IMG/VR virus record: IMGVR_UViG_3300036861_000975
Coordinates: 1-43,286 of that record
Length of the DNA: 43,286 nt
DNA from: a virus
Strand: one strand, 5' to 3'
Each line of letters begins with the position of its first letter. Position 1 is the first letter of the stretch. The position numbers were made by a program, and so were the translations under genes. The notes below the pieces were generated by a model, which ran no database searches, was not told where the DNA came from, and saw only the letters and a list, made by a program, of their open reading frames with translations. Below are positions 4,272 to 21,398 of this stretch, one piece after another.

Positions 4272-4510
4272 TGCGGCCCGTCCGCCCCGTGGCGCCGCCC
4301 CGTGGCGCGCAATTCGCGACCTTCGCGGAGCACCAGCCGGAATACGACCCGCTGCCGGCTTCGGTGAGCGCCGACGGCCTAGTCATGACGGAATGGGAGC
4401 CTACGGCCGAGGAACTGGCGGCGCTCGTAGCCGGCGGCCGCGTCCGGATCTGGCTGCACACCTACGGGCGGCCGCTCCAGCCATTGAACGTCGAGGTGGC
4501 CGCTCCGTGA
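4271..4510 (+). CDS. Small hypothetical protein
   Basis: 79 residues. A Pro/Arg-rich N-terminus leads to a compact C-terminal segment (WEPTAEELAALVAGG, then LHTYGRPLQPLNVEV). Proteins of this shape occur in early regions of other high-GC phages, but no function is known to me. The ATG overlaps the upstream stop (TGATG), and the next gene begins at GTGA on its stop. Confidence 0.55.
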   Translation: MRPVRPVAPPRGAQFATFAEHQPEYDPLPASVSADGLVMTEWEPTAEELAALVAGGRVRIWLHTYGRPLQPLNVEVAAP

Positions 4511-4758
4511 GCGGGACCAAGCACCTCCAGCTTGTCGCGAACGGCCGCCCGCGGCCGCTCGCCCGCGCCGAGCTCGAGGCGCTGACGGCCCCGTTCCGCC
4601 GCGAGCGTGAAGCACGCCGGCAGCGGCGCGCGGCCTTGGCGAGCACCTGGCGCTTCCTCGAGCGCCACGGTTTCGGGTGGCTGATCGGCGCCGGGATCCT
4701 GACCGCGGCCGTCACGTTCGCGGCGCTGGCTCTCTTCGCGGCGGGGGCCTGGCGGTGA
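4507..4758 (+). CDS. Small single-pass membrane protein
   Basis: 83 residues from a GTG that overlaps the upstream stop as GTGA. The reading frame is open further upstream, but that part runs through the preceding genes. A basic, helical N-terminal region (FRREREARRQRRAALAST) is followed by one strong transmembrane helix near residues 57-81. Positive residues before the helix suggest the N-terminus stays inside the cell. Role unknown. Confidence 0.6.
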   Translation: MSGTKHLQLVANGRPRPLARAELEALTAPFRREREARRQRRAALASTWRFLERHGFGWLIGAGILTAAVTFAALALFAAGAWR

Positions 4759-4812
4759 GCCGGCGCTACGCCGGCGGCGGCACGTGGACCTCCTCAGACA
4801 TCGGCGAACCCG

Positions 4813-5265: not shown

Positions 5266-5376
5266 GGGAGATCAAGCCTCCTTTGGGCACAGGTCGCGCT
5301 CGGGGGCCCCCGCCCCCGGCGCGGCCGATTTCCACCAGCCTGACTCTCAGCCGCGTCAGGCCGGGACCGTGTGGCA

Positions 5377-5643
5377 ATGACCACGCCGGCGCCACCCCCG
5401 CCTCGTCACCAGCTGCTGCAGCAGCTCTCGCCCAAGAGCCGCGCGCTCCGGGTGCGCGACGTGCGCGATCTGCTGAGCGTGTCGCGGACCACTCTCTACG
5501 AGATCCGCAGGACCGATCCCACTTTCCCCCTGCCGGTACAGGTGGCGCCGGGCACCTTCCGCTTCCTCGAGCACGAGGTCCTCGCCTGGCTACAGAGCCG
5601 CCAGCGCGTGGCCACGGTCGCGGCCGATGGGGACCAGTCATGA
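5377..5643 (+). CDS. AlpA/excisionase-like DNA-binding protein
   Basis: 88 residues from the ATG; a GTG two codons upstream is equally possible. It has the winged-helix pattern of AlpA and Xis-type proteins: RVRDVRDLLSVSRTTLYEI, then a turn, FPLPVQVAPGTFRFLEHEV and LAWLQSR. Members regulate transcription or direct integrase toward excision. It is the best excisionase candidate here, although it lies 3.6 kb from int. Its stop overlaps the next ATG as ATGA. Confidence 0.65.
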   Translation: MTTPAPPPPRHQLLQQLSPKSRALRVRDVRDLLSVSRTTLYEIRRTDPTFPLPVQVAPGTFRFLEHEVLAWLQSRQRVATVAADGDQS

Positions 5644-5987
5644 GCGCCCACCGTTACACCCCGATCGTCTCCCTCGACTGCGGCTGCGGCTGCGGGGAGT
5701 GCACCGACTTCTGCGAGTGTGCCTGCCCGCTGTGCGTCACGCTCCGCCGCGCGCGCCGGTCGGGCGAGTGGCCCGACTCGAGCACGAAGCTCCTCCGGGC
5801 CTGCACCAGCGCTCAGGTCATGCGCCGGCAGCACCGCCTCGAAGCCGCGGTGGTCGTCACCGCCGCGATCGTCTTCCTGAGCGCCGTCCTGACCGTGGCG
5901 ACCCTCGGACTCGCGCCGGTCTCGGGTCCTTGTCCCCCTGCCCCGATTGACGGCGCCCTGCCGCCGCCCATGGAGGTTTCGAGATGA
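5640..5987 (+). CDS. Cysteine-rich membrane protein
   Basis: 115 residues, unrecognised. Residues about 14-34 hold nine cysteines (CGCGCGEC, CECACPLC), a probable metal-binding knot. A transmembrane helix follows near residues 74-97 (VVVTAAIVFLSAVLTVATLG), then a Pro-rich tail. ATGA overlaps on both sides place it in the early operon. With few basic residues before the helix, topology is uncertain. Function unknown. Confidence 0.6.
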   Translation: MSAHRYTPIVSLDCGCGCGECTDFCECACPLCVTLRRARRSGEWPDSSTKLLRACTSAQVMRRQHRLEAAVVVTAAIVFLSAVLTVATLGLAPVSGPCPPAPIDGALPPPMEVSR

Positions 5988-6910
5988 CCACGCCGACCCC
6001 TCTCAACCTGCAGCGGCTCACCGAGGCGGACCTCGAGAAGATCGAGCTGCTCGTCGGCAGCCACCCCGCCCGTGAGGACGGCGTGTGCGTCATGGAAGCC
6101 GTGGCCTGGTTCGCGGGGGAGCCGCACACCGACGAGCCGAAGTGCGCGTCCCCCGTCCTGGGCGCCTTCCTGCGCGCGTGGAACGACCGGACCGACGCCG
6201 CGGGCCGGCAGCTGTTGAAGCCGTTCGTGCCGCGGCTGGTCGGAACGGCCGGCAAGGCGGCCGTGGAGCGCCGCCGCGCCTTCATGCTCGTCGACTGGTC
6301 GGTGAGGACCTGCGGGCCCACCTGGCTCCGCGCCGTCGGCCTGAACGACGACGCCGACGTCGTCGCGGCGCTGCCGGAGATCGTCGACAAGGCGACAGCG
6401 AGGAGCGCGGCCAAGGTGCTCGAGCCGATCAGCGAGAGAGCCTGGAAGGTCTACACCGACGCGTGGGCGGAGTTCCGCGAGAAGGCCGACCTCGCCGACC
6501 TCGCCGACCTCGCCGACCTCGCCGACCTCGCCGCCCTCGCCGCCCTCGCCGACCTCGCCGACCTCGCCGACCGCGCCGCCCTCGCCGCCCTCGCCGACCT
6601 CGCCGCCCTCGCCGACCTCGCCGCCCTCGCCGACCTCGCCGCCCTCGCCGCCCTCGCCGACCTCGCCGCCCTCGCCGACCTCGCCGCCCTCGCCGACCTC
6701 GCCGACCTCGCCGACCGCGCCGCCCGCGCCGCCCTCGCCGCCCGCGCCGCCCTCGCCGCCCTCGCCGACCTCTCTCCGGCGGAACGCCAAGCGCTCTACG
6801 ACGAGTTCTACAACGCGGTGCTCGAGAAGCTGCGTCCTGTCGTCGAGCAGCTGCAGGGCTCCGCCCTCCAGCTGCTCGACAGGATGATCGCGGCCGACGC
6901 GGCCGCGTAG
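5984..6910 (+). CDS. Conserved phage protein with a 96-residue A-(D/A)-(L/R) repeat tract
   Basis: 308 residues. Residues about 10-165 match a conserved phage and actinobacterial protein of unknown function (MEAVAWFAGEPHTDEP, ASPVLGAFLRAWND, RRRAFMLVDWSVR). Residues 168-263 are 32 tandem tripeptides of type Ala-(Asp/Ala)-(Leu/Arg), with 17 Asp and 4 Arg variants; a short helical C-terminus follows. The tract should form one long helix with leucines in a stripe. It is not a classical pentapeptide repeat, whose period is five. Function unknown. Confidence 0.75.
   Translation: MTTPTPLNLQRLTEADLEKIELLVGSHPAREDGVCVMEAVAWFAGEPHTDEPKCASPVLGAFLRAWNDRTDAAGRQLLKPFVPRLVGTAGKAAVERRRAFMLVDWSVRTCGPTWLRAVGLNDDADVVAALPEIVDKATARSAAKVLEPISERAWKVYTDAWAEFREKADLADLADLADLADLAALAALADLADLADRAALAALADLAALADLAALADLAALAALADLAALADLAALADLADLADRAARAALAARAALAALADLSPAERQALYDEFYNAVLEKLRPVVEQLQGSALQLLDRMIAADAAA
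6485..6772 (+). repeat. 32 tandem copies of a 9-bp unit, GCC-G(A/C)C-C(T/G)C
   Basis: 288 bases of in-frame tandem repeat. Seven of nine positions are identical in every copy. Only the middle bases of codons two and three vary, so every difference changes the amino acid and there is not one synonymous change. Copies could be gained or lost by slippage without breaking the frame. On the other strand and in other frames it creates long artefactual Gly/Glu- and Arg/Pro-rich reading frames. Confidence 0.95.
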
Positions 6911-8798: not shown

Positions 8799-9056
8799 GT
8801 GAGCGCGTCTGTGGGCCGGTCGAAGCTGATGCGGCGTGTCCAGCGGGCCTTCTCGCCCTGGCCGGAGTCGATCGCCGGCGTGGGCGAGAAGACGATGGGC
8901 CCGCTCGCCCGCTGCGTGCGCTGCCGCTCGCGGACGTTCGTGCGGTACGGCGGCGGCACGGTCCTCTGCCTCCGCCACGCCCTCGAGGCGGCCGCTCCCG
9001 GCGCCGGCGAGGCCGCGCCGGCTGAACCTCGTCCTGCGCGGGCGGCGGTCCCATGA
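8799..9056 (+). CDS. Small zinc-binding hypothetical protein
   Basis: 85 residues from a GTG. The centre holds CVRCRSRTFVRYGGGTVLCLRH, a probable C-x2-C...C-x2-H zinc site, flanked by a basic N-terminus and an Ala/Pro-rich tail. Zinc-ribbon proteins of this size are frequent in phage early operons. The stop overlaps the next ATG (ATGA). Confidence 0.55.
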   Translation: MSASVGRSKLMRRVQRAFSPWPESIAGVGEKTMGPLARCVRCRSRTFVRYGGGTVLCLRHALEAAAPGAGEAAPAEPRPARAAVP

Positions 9057-9352
9057 CGAACCTCGGGAAGTGTCGCTGGTGCAACAAGACCATCCGGTGG
9101 GTGACGACCAGGAAGCTGAAGCTCATGCCGATCGATCCCGACCCGGTGCCGGACGGCAACGTCCTCCTCGACGGCGAGGAGTTCGCCTACGTGCTCGGCC
9201 GGTCCACGCAGATCGAGCTCGAGGGCATGAGCCTCGGCGCGCGCTACCGGCCGCACTTCGCGAGCTGCCAGGGCGCGCAGCGAGCGTCCAGGGGGCATCT
9301 CAGGGCGGCGCTGCGGCGGACGCTCGACAAGGTCCGCAGGAGCCTCACCTGA
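9053..9352 (+). CDS. Conserved phage zinc-ribbon protein
   Basis: 99 residues. CRWCNKTIRW near the N-terminus, LMPIDPDPVPDGN in the middle, and RYRPHFASC toward the end match a very common phage protein family in which C-x2-C and H-x3-C bind zinc. Function unknown; usually found among replication or recombination genes. An ATGA start overlap is present, and its stop overlaps the next gene as CTGA. Confidence 0.7.
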   Translation: MTNLGKCRWCNKTIRWVTTRKLKLMPIDPDPVPDGNVLLDGEEFAYVLGRSTQIELEGMSLGARYRPHFASCQGAQRASRGHLRAALRRTLDKVRRSLT

Positions 9353-11070
9353 GCCAGATCCACCTCGGGTTCGAGGTCGGCAGCGGCAAGCCGGTGGCGA
9401 TCCCGCTGCGGCACCTGGCGGTCACCGGCCAGACGCAGGAGAGCGGCAAGACGACGACGCTCGAGGCCCTGGCCACGCGCGCCGGCGTCGCCGTGCTGGC
9501 CTTCGTCACGAAGCGCGGCGAGAAGGCCTTCAGCCTCGGCGCACGCGTCGCCCCCTACTTCCGCGACCGGGCCGACTGGCAGTTCGTCGACCAGCTCATC
9601 TCGGCCCAGCTCTCGGAAAAGAACAAGTGGCTGCGCCAGTGGTTCATCCCGATCTGCCGGACCACGCGCACGCTGGCCGATGTGCAGCGCGCCGTGAGGA
9701 AGGGGATGGAGAAGGCCACCGGCCAGCGCGCCGGCGCCTACGTCCAGCTGGACGCCTACCTCGACCTGATCGTCCCCGAGATCCAGAGCGCGAAGCTGGC
9801 CAGCTCGCTCGAGCTCGGGCCCGGCCTGAACGTCATGGACATCTCGGGCTCGTCGACGCCGATGCAGATGCTCTTCGTGCAGTCGGCGATCGACTGGGTG
9901 AACGCCCAAGCCCGGAACACCGTGGTGGTGGTCCCCGAGGCCTGGGAGTTCGTGCCGGAGGGGAAGGGCTCGCCGGCGAAGGCCTCGGCGATCGCCCTAG
10001 TGAGGAAGGGCGGCGGCATCGGCAACCACATCTGGGTCGACAGCCAGGACATGGCGGGGGTGGACAAGACGATCCTCCGGGGCTGTGCCGTCTGGCTGAT
10101 CGGGGTCCAGCGCGAGGCCAACGAGATCAAGCGCAACCTCGCCAACATCCCCGCCGGCATCAAGCGGCCCTCGGCGGCCGATGTCGCCACCCTCGCCCGC
10201 GGCCAGTTCTATGCGTGCTGGGGACAGCACGCCCTGAAGGTCTACGTCCAGCCGGCATGGCTGGCCACCGAGCAGGCGCGGGCGTTCGCGAGGAGCGAGC
10301 CACCGCCGACACCGCCTTCGAGCGACCAGGTGGGCAGGTTCATGGAGCGCGGCCTGGCCGCGCAGCACGCCGTCGACCGCGAGATCGCAGCGGCACGGCG
10401 GAAGGAGGACCCCTCGATGTGTGAAGAGCACCAGCGGCTCAGCCGCGAGATGGAGGCCCTCACCGGCTCCCTGAAGGAGGCCCAGCGCGCGCTCGTGGCC
10501 GCCGGCGCCGAGGCGGGGCGGCTGCGCATCCGCGCCCAGGCCGCCGACGAGCTGGCGGCCGCCATCGCGAAGCTGCTGCCGACGGGCGAAGGCCTCACGG
10601 CCGCCGCGGCGTCGGTTGACGAGGACGCGATCGTCCGCAAGGTCCTCGCGCGGATCCCGGCCGGGCCCGCTGGGCCTCTCCAGGTCACCCCGCCCGCGAA
10701 GCTGCGGGCCGACTTCCAGCGGGAGGAGGTCGCCCGCATCCTCTCCGCGATCCGTGACCTGTCGCCCCTCCAGAAGCGGATCCTGAAGCTCCTCGAGGGC
10801 CTCGAGGGGCAGCGCTGCTTCCAGAAGAACATCGCGCAACGCCTCGGCCGGCCCACGGGCGGCGACAGCTGGATCCACATGACGACGGCGGTGAAGGGTC
10901 TGGCGTCGGCTGGCTTCGTCGACGTCGACGAGAAGCGCGGCGTCAGGACCAGCGTGCGCGACAAGATCGCCGGCGGCCTCCAGACCTATCAGGCCGCCGA
11001 CGCAGACGTCGAGGCCGTCTACCAGAACGTCCTGTTCGAGATCGCCAATGAGAACGGAGGCCAAGCATGA
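9349..11070 (+). CDS. HerA/FtsK-superfamily ATPase with C-terminal winged helix
   Basis: 573 residues. The N-terminus IHLGFEVGSGKPVAIPL is a typical HerA-like strand, then Walker A GQTQESGKT (residues 27-35) and a Walker-B-like VVVVPEAWEF with Glu197. Residues about 345-400 are coiled coil (EMEALTGSLKEAQRAL), and about 465-540 look like a winged helix (LQKRILKLLEGLEG, IAQRLGRPTGG, LASAGFVDVDE). There is no ATG, GTG or TTG at a usable place: the conserved sequence begins at CTG 9349, in a CTGA overlap with AGGAG six bases upstream. Probable DNA-tracking motor; its partner is likely the adjacent ParB. Confidence 0.75.
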   Translation: MSQIHLGFEVGSGKPVAIPLRHLAVTGQTQESGKTTTLEALATRAGVAVLAFVTKRGEKAFSLGARVAPYFRDRADWQFVDQLISAQLSEKNKWLRQWFIPICRTTRTLADVQRAVRKGMEKATGQRAGAYVQLDAYLDLIVPEIQSAKLASSLELGPGLNVMDISGSSTPMQMLFVQSAIDWVNAQARNTVVVVPEAWEFVPEGKGSPAKASAIALVRKGGGIGNHIWVDSQDMAGVDKTILRGCAVWLIGVQREANEIKRNLANIPAGIKRPSAADVATLARGQFYACWGQHALKVYVQPAWLATEQARAFARSEPPPTPPSSDQVGRFMERGLAAQHAVDREIAAARRKEDPSMCEEHQRLSREMEALTGSLKEAQRALVAAGAEAGRLRIRAQAADELAAAIAKLLPTGEGLTAAAASVDEDAIVRKVLARIPAGPAGPLQVTPPAKLRADFQREEVARILSAIRDLSPLQKRILKLLEGLEGQRCFQKNIAQRLGRPTGGDSWIHMTTAVKGLASAGFVDVDEKRGVRTSVRDKIAGGLQTYQAADADVEAVYQNVLFEIANENGGQA

Positions 11071-12710
11071 GCAGTCAACCTCACGCGCCGGGCGCACCGT
11101 CCGGCTCGTCCGGCGCGTTCCAGTACCTACCGCTCGCGGACCTCCGCGAGTCGCCCCTCAATCCCAGGAAGCACTTCGACCCGGCGAAGCTCGCCGAGCT
11201 GGCCGCGAGCATCAAGGCGAAGGGCGTGCTCACGCCGCTGCTCGTGAGGCCGGTGGCGAAGGGCGCGGCCTACGAGATCGGCGCCGGCCACCGACGGTAC
11301 CGCGCGGCGAACATCGCCGAGATCGACCAGGTGCCAGCCGTCGTCCGGGAGATGAGCGACACGGAGTTCCTCGAGCTGCTCGTGACGGAGAACGACCAGC
11401 GCGAGGACGTCCATCCCCTCGAGGAGGCGGCCGGCTACCAGGCGCTGATGACGAAGGCGGGGTACCCCGTGGAGCGGATCGCCGAGCGCGTCGGCCGATC
11501 GGTCAAGTACGTCTATGACCGCGTTAAGCTGCTGCAGCTCACCAAGGAGGCCCAGAAGCTCTTCCTCGCCGGTCACATGACAGCCGGCCACGCGATCCTG
11601 CTGGCGCGCCTGTCCCCGGCGGACCAGGAGCGGGCGATCGAGGAGCACGGCGCCTTGTTCACCGACGAGCACCTGCTCTTCACTCCGGAGGAGGAGGAGA
11701 AGCTCGAGGTCGACGACGAGCCGCGGAAGCCCCGGAGCGTTCGGGAGTTCGCGGGCTGGATCGACGAGCACGTGAAGCTCGACGCGACCCAGGCCGATCC
11801 CATGCTCTTCCCCGAGATGGTGCAGACCGTCCAGGCGGCCGCCGAGGAGGCCGAGAAGATCGTTCGCATCACCCACGAAATCATGACCCCCGAGGATGCG
11901 AAGGACGGGCAGAAGCTCATCCTCGGCCGGTCGTGGAAGAGGGCCGACGGCATGCACGGCTCGAAGCGCTGCGACCATTCGGTCACCGGCGTCATCGTGA
12001 TCGGTCCCGGCCGAGGGCAGGCTTTCAAGGTCTGCGTGAACAAGGACAAGTGCGCGGTCCACTGGGGCGCCGAGATGCGCGAGCGGCAGAAGCGCGCGAA
12101 GCAGACGGCGACCACCGGCGCCAAGGCCGCCCAGGACCGCTGGAAGCGGGAAGAAGAGCAGCGCGAGCGTGAGCGGGCGCGTGAGGAGGCCGCGCGCCAG
12201 CGTTGGCAAAAGGCCGCCCCGACCGTCCTGAAGGCGGTCGCGGAGAAGGTGAAGAAGGCGGCGGCCGGTCCCAGCGGACCCCTCGCCCGGATCATCTTGG
12301 GCGCCATCAGGAACGAGGGTGCCGGCGCCGCAGCCGCGGCGGCGTTCGTCCCTCGCGGCACGAAGCCCGAGGACCTCGTGCGCCACGTCGCCTTCCTCAT
12401 CCTCCACGGAGAGGCTCTCGACCGCTGGTACGGCCCTCAGCACTTTCCGAAGCGCGCGAAGGAGCTCGGCGTCGACGTTCAGAAGATCCTCGATGAGGTC
12501 GCTCCGACCGAGAAGGCGGCGGCCGTCGTCGCGCGCTGTAAGGAGTGTGGCTGCACCGAGGACAAGGCCTGCCCGGGCGGGTGCAGCTGGGCCGAGGAGC
12601 CGAACAAGAAGACCGGCCTCGGGCTGTGCACCGCGTGCCGGGCGAAGCGGAAGGCGAAGAACCCGCGGGTGAAGGGCGCGCCGCGCCGCGCCGCCCACGC
12701 GTCGGCCTGA
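11067..12710 (+). CDS. parB: ParB/Spo0J-like nuclease-fold and HTH protein
   Basis: 547 residues, larger than typical chromosomal ParB (about 300). Order: ParB N-terminal domain (LADLRESPLNPRKHF, then AASIKAKGVLTPLLVRP, GAGHRRYRAA), the ENDQREDVHPLEEAAGY segment, an HTH (ERIAERVGRSVKYVYDRVKLL), a middle segment with possible metal ligands (RCDHS, CVNKDKC), a Lys/Arg/Glu coiled coil (about 330-395), and a C-terminal cysteine cluster starting at Cys491 (CKECGC, CPGGC, CTAC). ParB proteins bind a centromere-like site and spread using CTP. No ParA is present; the HerA-like ATPase directly upstream (ATGA overlap) may replace it. Confidence 0.85.
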   Translation: MSSQPHAPGAPSGSSGAFQYLPLADLRESPLNPRKHFDPAKLAELAASIKAKGVLTPLLVRPVAKGAAYEIGAGHRRYRAANIAEIDQVPAVVREMSDTEFLELLVTENDQREDVHPLEEAAGYQALMTKAGYPVERIAERVGRSVKYVYDRVKLLQLTKEAQKLFLAGHMTAGHAILLARLSPADQERAIEEHGALFTDEHLLFTPEEEEKLEVDDEPRKPRSVREFAGWIDEHVKLDATQADPMLFPEMVQTVQAAAEEAEKIVRITHEIMTPEDAKDGQKLILGRSWKRADGMHGSKRCDHSVTGVIVIGPGRGQAFKVCVNKDKCAVHWGAEMRERQKRAKQTATTGAKAAQDRWKREEEQRERERAREEAARQRWQKAAPTVLKAVAEKVKKAAAGPSGPLARIILGAIRNEGAGAAAAAAFVPRGTKPEDLVRHVAFLILHGEALDRWYGPQHFPKRAKELGVDVQKILDEVAPTEKAAAVVARCKECGCTEDKACPGGCSWAEEPNKKTGLGLCTACRAKRKAKNPRVKGAPRRAAHASA

Positions 12711-19286: not shown

Positions 19287-19423
19287 CGGGGGGGGCGGTT
19301 CGTTCCCGGGAGGGGGGGGAGGGGTACACCCGAGGGAGGGTGCCCTCCTCTCTCGCGAGGGCAGCAAAATCCCCCCCGCCGGCGGCCCCGAACCGCGCTT
19401 TCGCCCTGATTTGACGCGGTGAT
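19287..19423. promoter_or_regulatory. G-rich structured gap upstream of terS, candidate cos/pac or terminator
   Basis: No gene. G8 (19288-19295) and G8 (19312-19319) face C7 (19371-19377). GCGGTTCG (19295-19302) and CGAACCGC (19389-19396) are perfect inverted copies 86 bases apart. Inside is hairpin TGCCCTC-9 bases-GAGGGCA (19331-19353). Packaging sites often lie just before terS, so this is the best cos/pac candidate. Four G-runs close together could also form a quadruplex. There is no U-tract. Confidence 0.5.
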
Positions 19424-19930
19424 GTGGGCCATCGGCGAAATCAAACGGGCGGCCGCGGGAAATCAAAGGGCGGCCGTGTCGTCGAGTTCCCCCGCAAGGG
19501 CCCGCGCGGCGGCCCGCGCGGCCGCGGCGGCCACCGCCCTGGCGCTGGTCGGCCTCGCGATCGCGGGCCCTCCGGCATCAGCTGGGCTCGCATCCGCCAC
19601 TACGCACGCCGCGGCGCCGAGCGCGACACGATCATCGCCGCCTTCGGTATCACGGCCGCCCAGCTCGGCGACCCCGACGTCGTCGCGCGCCTCCAGGAAG
19701 AGATGGTCCGCGGCGCCGCCCTGTACCAGCTCGACCTCCTCGACGACGTCCATCGCCTCCGGAAGGGCACCAGCGACGGCAGCGTCAACGCGACCCTGGC
19801 CAGTCTCAAGGAAGCGCACGGCTGGGGCCGTCCGGACTCAGGAAAGGGCCGAAAGGACAAGCGTCCCGACGCCGAGGCCGCCGTCGCCGAGCTCGAGCGT
19901 CTCCTACGGAGAGTCCGTGCGCCTGGGTAG
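19424..19930 (+). CDS. terS: Terminase small subunit
   Basis: 168 residues from a GTG. A basic, Gly/Arg-rich N-terminus is followed by an HTH (ARIRHYARRGAERDTIIAAFG, then ITAAQLGD), a central helical oligomerisation region (YQLDLLDDVHRLRKG) and a phage TerS-like ending (LKEAHGWGRPDSG). It recognises the packaging site and passes DNA to TerL. Directly upstream of terL, overlapping it by 14 bases. Confidence 0.75.
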   Translation: MGHRRNQTGGRGKSKGGRVVEFPRKGPRGGPRGRGGHRPGAGRPRDRGPSGISWARIRHYARRGAERDTIIAAFGITAAQLGDPDVVARLQEEMVRGAALYQLDLLDDVHRLRKGTSDGSVNATLASLKEAHGWGRPDSGKGRKDKRPDAEAAVAELERLLRRVRAPG

Positions 19931-21398
19931 GTTCGGCTTCAAGCCGGAGGTCACCCGGGTGCTCGTCGACCTCTGCAAGGAGCTGCACGAGCTGCCGCTC
20001 GCGCAGCGCCGCGAGGCACTCCTCACGCTCAGCGTCGACACCCAGGCGGCGATCAAGGCCCTCGACTACGAGTGGATCCTGTTCGCGCGGCCCGAGCAGC
20101 TCGCGCCGGCGCCGCCCTGGCGCTGGTGGGTGATGCCCGGCGGCCGCGGCGGCGGCAAGACCCGTTCCGCCGGCGAGCAGGTCACCGAGTGGGCCTGGGA
20201 CAACCCCGGCATCCGCATCGCTCTCATCGGGAAGGACTCGGGCAGCCGCAACCGGATCATGGTCACGGGGAAGTCGGGTCTGCTGCGCATCTCGCCGCCG
20301 TGGTTCCGGCCGCGGTGGTGGAAGACGGACAAGATGCTCGAGTGGCCCAACGACACCATCGCCGACCTCCATTCCTCCGAGGAGCCGCAGACGCTGCGCG
20401 GGCCCGAATACCACAAGGCCTGGACCACCGAGCTCTTTCACTGGCAGATCCCGAAAGGCGAGAAAGAGCCCGTCGCGTGGCGCGAGGGCATCAAGCTTTC
20501 GCTGCGTCTGGGCGAGGACCCCCAAGGCATCATCGACTCGACGCCGCGGCCGACGGAGTTCTGCAACCACTTCCTGCTGGGGCCGAAGAACGCGCGCGGC
20601 GATCGCCTGATTTCGCAGGAGCAGGTGGAATCCGGCGACTGGCGGATCGAGCACGAGCTCGAGGACCAGGACGGCCGCAAGCACCGCTACGTCGTCGTCG
20701 TCCGCCGGTGGTCGTCCGAGCGCAACGCCGCCAACATGTCGCCCGGCGTCATCGCCGAGTGGCGCCACGACCTCCGCGGCTCGCGCCTCGAGGCCCAGGA
20801 GCTCGACGGCATCATCAATGCCAAGGTCGAGGGCGCCCTCTGGTCGACGGAGCTGCTCGATCAGAACCGGGTAGACGGGATCCCCCGCATCGTCAAGACG
20901 CTCGTGGCGATCGACCCCACCAGGTCGAACACGCCGCGGGACGAGGCCGGAATCATGGTCGGCGGGCTCGGCGAGGACGGCCACGCCTACGTGTGGGACG
21001 ACTGCTCGCTGCGCGGCAGCCCTGACCGCTGGGCCCGGGCGGCGATCGCCGCCAGGAACCAGTACGGCGCCTCCGCCATCGTGATCGAGAAGAACCGCCT
21101 CGAGGCGAAGGCGCGCGAGACGATCCGGACCATCGACCGCAGCGTGCGGTGGGTGGAGGTCTCAGCCCTCGACGGCAAGCGCACGCGCGCGGAGCCGGTG
21201 GCGGCGCTGTACGAGCAGGGGCGAGTCCACCACGTGCGCGACGTGCGGTACCCCGAGCGCTTCGCCCTCCTCGAGGACGAGATGATCAGCTGGGACCCCC
21301 GCGATGCGAAGGCCATCAGCCCGAACCGGCTCGACGCGCTGGTCTGGCTCGTACACGCGCTGCTGATCGGCGAGCACAAGGTGCCGATCTCGCTGTAG
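19917..21398 (+). CDS. terL: Terminase large subunit
   Basis: 493 residues from GTG 19917; the frame is open for another 500 bases upstream, but that part is the shadow of terS. Walker A is MPGGRGGGKTRS with Lys81. The ATPase continues through SSEEPQTLRGPEY and STPRPTEF. The nuclease domain follows, with LVAIDPTRS (first acidic residue), then AIVIEKN and a final Asp in SPNRLDALVW. This is the ATP-driven packaging motor and endonuclease, similar to the COG5323-type TerL found in HK97-like phages and gene transfer agents. Confidence 0.93.
   Translation: MRLGRFGFKPEVTRVLVDLCKELHELPLAQRREALLTLSVDTQAAIKALDYEWILFARPEQLAPAPPWRWWVMPGGRGGGKTRSAGEQVTEWAWDNPGIRIALIGKDSGSRNRIMVTGKSGLLRISPPWFRPRWWKTDKMLEWPNDTIADLHSSEEPQTLRGPEYHKAWTTELFHWQIPKGEKEPVAWREGIKLSLRLGEDPQGIIDSTPRPTEFCNHFLLGPKNARGDRLISQEQVESGDWRIEHELEDQDGRKHRYVVVVRRWSSERNAANMSPGVIAEWRHDLRGSRLEAQELDGIINAKVEGALWSTELLDQNRVDGIPRIVKTLVAIDPTRSNTPRDEAGIMVGGLGEDGHAYVWDDCSLRGSPDRWARAAIAARNQYGASAIVIEKNRLEAKARETIRTIDRSVRWVEVSALDGKRTRAEPVAALYEQGRVHHVRDVRYPERFALLEDEMISWDPRDAKAISPNRLDALVWLVHALLIGEHKVPISL

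Follow-up and report, generated by a model that had tools for sequence, protein, structure and literature searches.

A coding minisatellite in a virus record belongs to a class of phage gene arrays whose uniform silent bases and mixed side chains point to selection for side-chain variety

Results

The repeat tract and the gene that carries it

The window, the entire 43,286-bp stretch of DNA analyzed here, contains a gene with an internal tract of 9-bp units (Table 1). Re-examination of the tract revealed 32 tandem in-frame units spanning 288 bp (TRF score 443), a copy number that comes from a metagenomic virus record (IMG/VR) and was possibly collapsed in assembly; the coordinates, unit, and count given in the original prediction were all exact. 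Four unit types are present: GCCGACCTC (GCC GAC CTC, encoding ADL) in 15 copies, GCCGCCCTC (GCC GCC CTC, AAL) in 13 copies, and GCCGACCGC (GCC GAC CGC, ADR) and GCCGCCCGC (GCC GCC CGC, AAR) in 2 copies each. Seven of the nine columns are invariant, both variable columns are middle codon bases, and silent variants number zero, exactly as had been claimed for the 96 codons. TRF analysis of the 43,286 bp found no second copy of the repeat elsewhere in the window, and the tract contains an exact tandem duplication of seven units (63 bp).

The Ala codons of the tract are GCC in 47 of 47 cases, as compared to 15 GCC and 19 GCG in the rest of the gene (chance ∼10^-16.7). Codon bias is thereby ruled out as the source of the silent uniformity. 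Since GCG is slightly preferred over GCC elsewhere in the gene, the uniformity can be attributed to copying and the units are recent copies. Within the window alone, all of the variation goes back to only two sites. If two single-site changes were drawn at random, the probability that neither would be silent is P = 0.55, so the absence of silent change there is by itself weak evidence. This probability, together with the recent copying evident from the silent uniformity and the segmental duplication, is compatible with a neutral expansion in which a few founder units that differed by replacement changes were amplified and nothing was selected.

Table 1. Features of the repeat gene and its upstream neighbor in the window
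Feature	Position	Strand	Basis
AlpA/HTH_17-like regulator upstream, early-region context	5371..5643	+	Pfam PF05930 E=2.1e-5, PF12728
ORF of 308 aa bearing the repeat, stop included	5984..6910	+	ORF list; relatives in same frame
Conserved N-terminal domain, residues 1-140	5984..6403	+	phrog_13065 match, alignments, AlphaFold
Connecting helix, part of H136-167	6404..6484	+	AlphaFold
Coding minisatellite of 32 x 9 bp, A-[D/A]-[L/R] repeats	6485..6772	+	TRF and ORF frame
Internal 63-bp (7-unit) duplication, copy 1	6579..6641	+	Exact match
Internal 63-bp (7-unit) duplication, copy 2	6642..6704	+	Exact match
C-terminal helix, family motif LQxSAxxLLDRMI, window version LQGSALQLLDRMI	6773..6907	+	Relatives' alignment, AlphaFold

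The N-terminal domain (N-domain) matches phrog_13065 over residues 31-111 in a profile search (E=1.3e-6). AlphaFold models this domain as mostly helical with pLDDT ∼95. The long Ala/Leu helix proposed for the tract is compatible with the model, which draws it mostly as helix, albeit with low confidence (pLDDT 33-58). The protein has no match among Pfam and NCBIfam families, and in the Pfam search it matched neither Imm5_like (PF21805) nor DUF7666 (PF24703). A pentapeptide repeat protein was rejected on the basis of the period, which is 3 in the window and not that of period-5 A(D/N)LXX units, and of the lack of a Pfam hit. Comparison with PDB folds gave no significant match, and a second comparison returned helical proteins only, with Z of 5.4 or less; such weak matches do not allow a function to be assigned from the fold. 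Significant matches in a viral model library were uncharacterized phage proteins only. Further along the window, a 744-aa ORF at 8836-11070 weakly matches a family of terminase large subunits (phrog_2666, E=5e-6), although a terminase match at 19419-21398 is stronger. A 547-aa ParB-like protein (ParB_N and HTH_ParB) is encoded at 11067-12710, downstream of the repeat gene.

Similar tracts occur on several unrelated N-domains

Relatives of the N-domain (phrog_13065-type, referred to as family 1) were found using the degenerate pattern C[FV]M[EN][MVA][VI]A[WY] and tblastn. They are encoded at 131 IMG/VR loci, of which 80 were retrieved for analysis, and the claim that the repeat is attached to a conserved phage protein is thereby borne out. 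Nearly all family 1 loci carry an Ala-rich 3- or 4-residue repeat at the same location, and most complete members end in a helix with LxxSAxxLLxRM (the strict pattern matches 40 of 51 complete members). The window protein shares these features: a significant profile match, an Ala-rich tract, and then a C-terminal LxxSAxxLxxRM helix. Across 71 members, C35, M37, E38, V40, A41, D50, D68, R75, and R98 of the N-domain are invariant. No phage closely related to that of the window was detected in a search that used the N-domain alone.

The repeats themselves are less uniform. Most family 1 tracts have period 4 with AA[W/R/G][D/A] units; the window and one other locus (L001) have period 3, A[D/A][L/R], and another tract (L011) mixes AKS and AAEY units. 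The bases that vary among the relatives include T/A/G, T/C/G, A/C, A/C/T, and G/T, as well as two-base differences. Because of these many other combinations, the suggestion that the variation reflects A:T to C:G mutation fails.

Where the neighbors of family 1 genes can be identified, most of them function in recombination, replication, or DNA modification (ERF, YqaJ, SSB, methylases, and DNA polymerase III beta), and the gene context thus points to the early region. A relative without the tract is found in Gordonia phage OneUp, with RecE/RecT nearby. The N-domain is also present in 5 of 299 bacterial genomes, one of which is a Sphingomonas MAG; among the four other carriers, the two readable proteins (L305 and L308) are distant relatives that contain no array. 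One 54.6-kb contig, IMGVR_UViG_3300048589_001642, has two copies of the N-domain gene (L045 and L050) that are ∼90% identical, with arrays that are partly common and partly different. Eleven collagen-like or antisense hits (L002, L005, L007, L012-L015, L017-L019, and L021) were left out of the analysis, since they are either low-complexity matches or possibly Gly-X-Y genes read in antisense, with a putative coding strand.

A second family, with a GKGCAVGC N-domain, comprises 66 loci and has a primase as neighbor in Xanthomonas phages. Using hhalign, no homology between the family 1 and family 2 N-domains was detected (probability 0.2%), and membership of the window protein in family 2 was rejected on this profile-profile result. 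The DNA pattern of successive AA(NGG)G(A/C)C units occurs in at least 120 viral stretches. Among the matches listed, families 1 and 2 cover only 30 of the 125 ORFs with this pattern and the remaining ORFs include several other N-domains, such as DUF7666 and Imm5-like types; the 125 ORFs include a few wrong-frame hits, contig-end ORFs without an N-domain, and some loci that had been counted before. The AA[WRG][DA] tract is carried, for example, by some Imm5-like (PF21805) and DUF7666 (PF24703) phage proteins (L330, L382, L326, and L377). Three PHROG families (phrog_30808, phrog_8332, and phrog_18326) match many proteins via the tract region (L003, L016, L326, L344, and L410), and since the match is through the tract, these families unite proteins with unrelated N-domains.

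Replacement differences exceed silent differences within arrays

For each array, pN and pS were calculated by comparing codons one period apart within that array. In 74 family 1 arrays, pS was 0.024 and pN was 0.149, with 95 silent and 1576 replacement differences. After deduplication to 54 arrays, pN/pS was 6.2 (bootstrap 4.1-11.3) and pN exceeded pS in 53 of 54. Family 2 gave a nearly identical picture (40 arrays, pN/pS 6.3 (3.8-14.3), pN>pS in 39 of 40), so that across the 94 deduplicated arrays the replacement rate within an array is ∼6 times the silent rate. The arrays on further N-domains, among the matches listed, had a ratio of 4.3, with pN>pS in 106 of 113. As a control, 22 other coding arrays from viral contigs, mostly collagen-like, had a ratio of 0.33, with pN>pS in a single array. 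Collagen-like (Gly-X-Y) phage repeats share period-3 coding with the window but have this low ratio and lack the N-domain.

A stricter, column-based count considered only variants held by at least two units at equal phase. The 63 in-phase arrays contained 190 replacement variants and 4 silent variants (binomial P 3e-22), although the alphabets may be inherited and the 190 variants are therefore not 190 independent events. Both counts are the opposite of what would be seen if relatives carried synonymous variants as commonly, the outcome named in the original prediction as grounds for giving it up. Drift treats silent and replacement changes alike, and a neutral expansion is thus at odds with a family ratio of ∼6 or with 190 versus 4 variants.

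The distribution of variation among arrays provided further insight. In 37 AA[WRG][DA] arrays, silent bases are near-uniform inside arrays and different across arrays, with Fst of 0.95-1.00 at the variable silent columns (two Ala codons, Arg, Asp, and Ala4). The residues W/R/G and D/A, on the other hand, had Fst of 0.13 and 0.14, are mixed in nearly every array, and the W/R/G position is polymorphic in 37 of 37. The window array is silent-uniform, as in the relatives. If silent bases were under one constraint common to all arrays, they would be alike across arrays, and this was ruled out because they differ. Neutral turnover would sort silent and side-chain sites alike, yet the Fst values are opposite, which suggests that selection keeps the side chains mixed. 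Given that almost all arrays retain a mixture of residues whereas each has its own fixed silent bases, we consider neutral expansion very unlikely. Of the two processes originally put forward, recent expansion with gene conversion or selection on side chains, homogenization in combination with selection is retained; very recent expansion would account for the uniform silent bases but leaves the excess of replacements unexplained. Taken together, uniform silent bases and mixed side chains in many related phage genes point to selection for side-chain variety.

Arrays gain and lose whole units and break assemblies

Whole-unit, in-frame indels occur between phages with 99-99.9% identical flanks. 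In one pair (L075 and L079) the flanks are 99.1-99.75% identical while the arrays are 67 and 223 codons long, a difference of 156 codons; the arrays of a second pair (L100 and L105) also differ by whole in-frame units. Arrays of this kind explain the contig breaks in these genes. In 33 of 81 loci the contig ends within 500 bp downstream of the N-domain, as compared to 5 of 81 on the upstream side, which indicates that the tract breaks assemblies. Two isolate records of Xanthomonas phages described as "complete genomes," XapPhi1 (L299, PP391659.1) and XapPhi2 (L300, PP391660.1), end inside the array, and these record ends are probably assembly breaks and not physical ends. In two near-identical phages (L055 and L057), a second set of offset tandem repeats lies downstream of the gene at ∼4380-4800.

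The frequent contig breaks, the origin of the window as an IMG/VR virus record, and the +2 frame of the window tract, which reads as an Arg-Pro-Arg repeat in which the variants are silent, could suggest that the pattern is an artifact of a wrong reading frame or of assembly error. The +2 frame was rejected because conservation of the N-domain and C-terminal motif follows frame 0. Moreover, in each of the 82 complete genes from both families, every other sense frame is interrupted somewhere along the gene, while frame 0 is open in 94 of 94 arrays. In addition, assembly errors are blind to codon position, and isolate genomes carry such arrays too. An artifact is therefore an extremely improbable explanation.

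The order of units was analyzed in 448 units from 28 arrays that have no interruption. At lags 1-8, word order could not be distinguished from a random sequence of units, and residue 3 varied independently of residue 4, although IMG/VR arrays are largely short-read assemblies, which favor aperiodic arrays, and the randomness may be exaggerated. If real, random order would imply recombination between sites a few bases apart and that selection fixes no order. The isolates KPhi1, phiXaf18, and BsXeu269p/3 (Xanthomonas) have older arrays in which silent variants are present and the order is nearly conserved, which shows that turnover can be slow and that fast turnover is not universal.

Constant silent bases, variability at defined positions, random order, and independent positions are also what targeted mutagenesis would produce, in which random residues are introduced into an otherwise constant scaffold, either by a diversity-generating retroelement or by hypermutation at specific positions. 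The phage arrays resemble the targets of diversity-generating retroelements in having variable residues on a constant scaffold but differ in that neither a reverse transcriptase nor a template copy was found. A reverse transcriptase (PF00078, RVT_1) was detected in 0 of 32 phage records including the window, some of which may be fragments, in a search with positive controls, and the window has no second repeat copy that could act as a template. Moreover, AGG and CGG for Arg co-occur in just 2 of 32 arrays though that base varies otherwise. This argues against a hypermutable base at the NGG codon, which would mix the two, and indicates that the base is not randomized. Lastly, the variation in the window involves T/G and not A alone. 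Targeted mutagenesis is, in our estimation, highly improbable.

Discussion

The tract is probably a coding minisatellite that is homogenized by recombination while selection maintains a varied set of side chains along a rod-like helix. Among the relatives, whole units are gained and lost, silent bases are homogenized, replacements are in excess, and the arrangement recurs on unrelated N-domains. From these observations, a four-step model can be proposed. In the first step, whole in-frame units are gained or lost through unequal recombination or slippage, which leads to arrays that change in length while the flanks remain identical. In the second, this turnover homogenizes the silent bases of each array, with every lineage fixing its own. 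Both of these steps are seen in the relatives. In the third, for which the population-genetic pattern argues, selection would keep each unit mixed at one or two of its side chains, drawing on a small alphabet, e.g. W/R/G × D/A, or L/R × D/A in the window. In the fourth, the product would be a long Ala-rich rod of helix that varies in length and has a mixed surface, located between the conserved globular N-domain and the conserved C-terminal helix; the rod may act as an exposed interaction surface for which the mix of side chains matters and the exact order is free or fast-changing. Steps 1 through 3 concern the phage families as a whole, and we infer them for the window from its family membership and uniform silent bases.

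Two close readings could account for the mixed side chains, namely a recognition surface (in an arms race or in self/non-self discrimination) or heterogeneity that prevents self-association. The latter is a form of negative design, in which an Ala-rich helix of perfect periodicity would bind to itself or form aggregates, and selection would demand only an irregular side-chain mix, with the order uninformative and no specific partner. The evolutionary steps are identical to those above and the difference lies solely in the reason for step 3. The random word order and independent residues, the similar composition across arrays implied by the low residue Fst, and the diverse alphabets that serve one family (A[DA][LR], AA[WRG][DA], AK/ES/Y, and AGV) are in line with negative design. 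So is the net charge of the arrays, which spans -23 to +15, a range that also excludes net charge (DNA mimicry) as a generally selected property. Less easily reconciled with negative design are the short uniform arrays of L061 and L089 and the conserved order in KPhi1 and phiXaf18, which come from different continents, although this conservation may reflect shared descent. We regard negative design as a substantial possibility that falls short of being probable. As between the two readings, the order looks random, one alphabet can replace another, and charge is free to vary, all of which favors heterogeneity somewhat, while the number of different N-domains, some with Imm5-like modules, leaves room for recognition. 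A more specific proposal is that many unrelated phage proteins share a recombination-shuffled helical array whose side-chain order serves as a fast-changing recognition code, used against hosts or rival phages, as a phage counterpart of PRDM9 and HNWD with 3- to 4-residue units. We put this proposal forward tentatively and judge it rather unlikely.

Replacement-only variation on silent-uniform repeats is a mark of recombination together with diversifying selection and is known mainly from eukaryotic recognition genes. The repeat unit measures 84 bp in PRDM9 and 34 aa in TAL effectors. Persi et al. (PMC5120217) report rapid divergence among the repeats of a protein, under both relaxed and positive selection, and an inter-repeat dN/dS of 2.7 for PRDM9; the ratio of ∼6 for the phage arrays is higher, with the caveat that the estimators differ. 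Most of the variation in PRDM9 arrays consists of replacements in the three codons that contact DNA (PMC3890296). The phage arrays are like the PRDM9 minisatellite in their near-identical in-frame units, copy-number turnover, and replacements at few specificity codons, whereas PRDM9 consists of folded fingers with a known DNA target and the phage arrays consist of 9-12 bp units of simple helix. In the WD-repeats of Podospora HNWD (het-d/e/r), concerted evolution is combined with diversifying selection that acts on four surface codons of each unit, and repeats are frequently gained and lost (PMC2873952). These features are shared with the phage arrays; however, HNWD is a fungal STAND protein with β-propeller units and proven allorecognition, and there is no homology. 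The phage relatives combine silent uniformity within arrays, silent difference between arrays, replacement excess, and copy-number change, and would thus fit the PRDM9/HNWD kind, with units that are far smaller.

The pattern is now seen in well over 100 uncharacterized phage genes with several N-domain types and 3-4-residue units, and defines a large class of phage dark proteins by one testable property. No description of these phage arrays was found in the literature searched, with most subscription journals outside its coverage. It also raises the question of how a mixed surface on a helix would benefit a phage protein. TAL effectors have near-identical repeats with a variable di-residue (PMC4522561). 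Those repeats bind DNA bases, and the phage arrays share only the layout of variable-residue repeats. Imm5-like modules are predicted immunity proteins of polymorphic toxin systems (PMC3482391), and while some Imm5-like/DUF7666 phage proteins have the AA[WRG][DA] tract, the N-domain of the window protein belongs to a different family.
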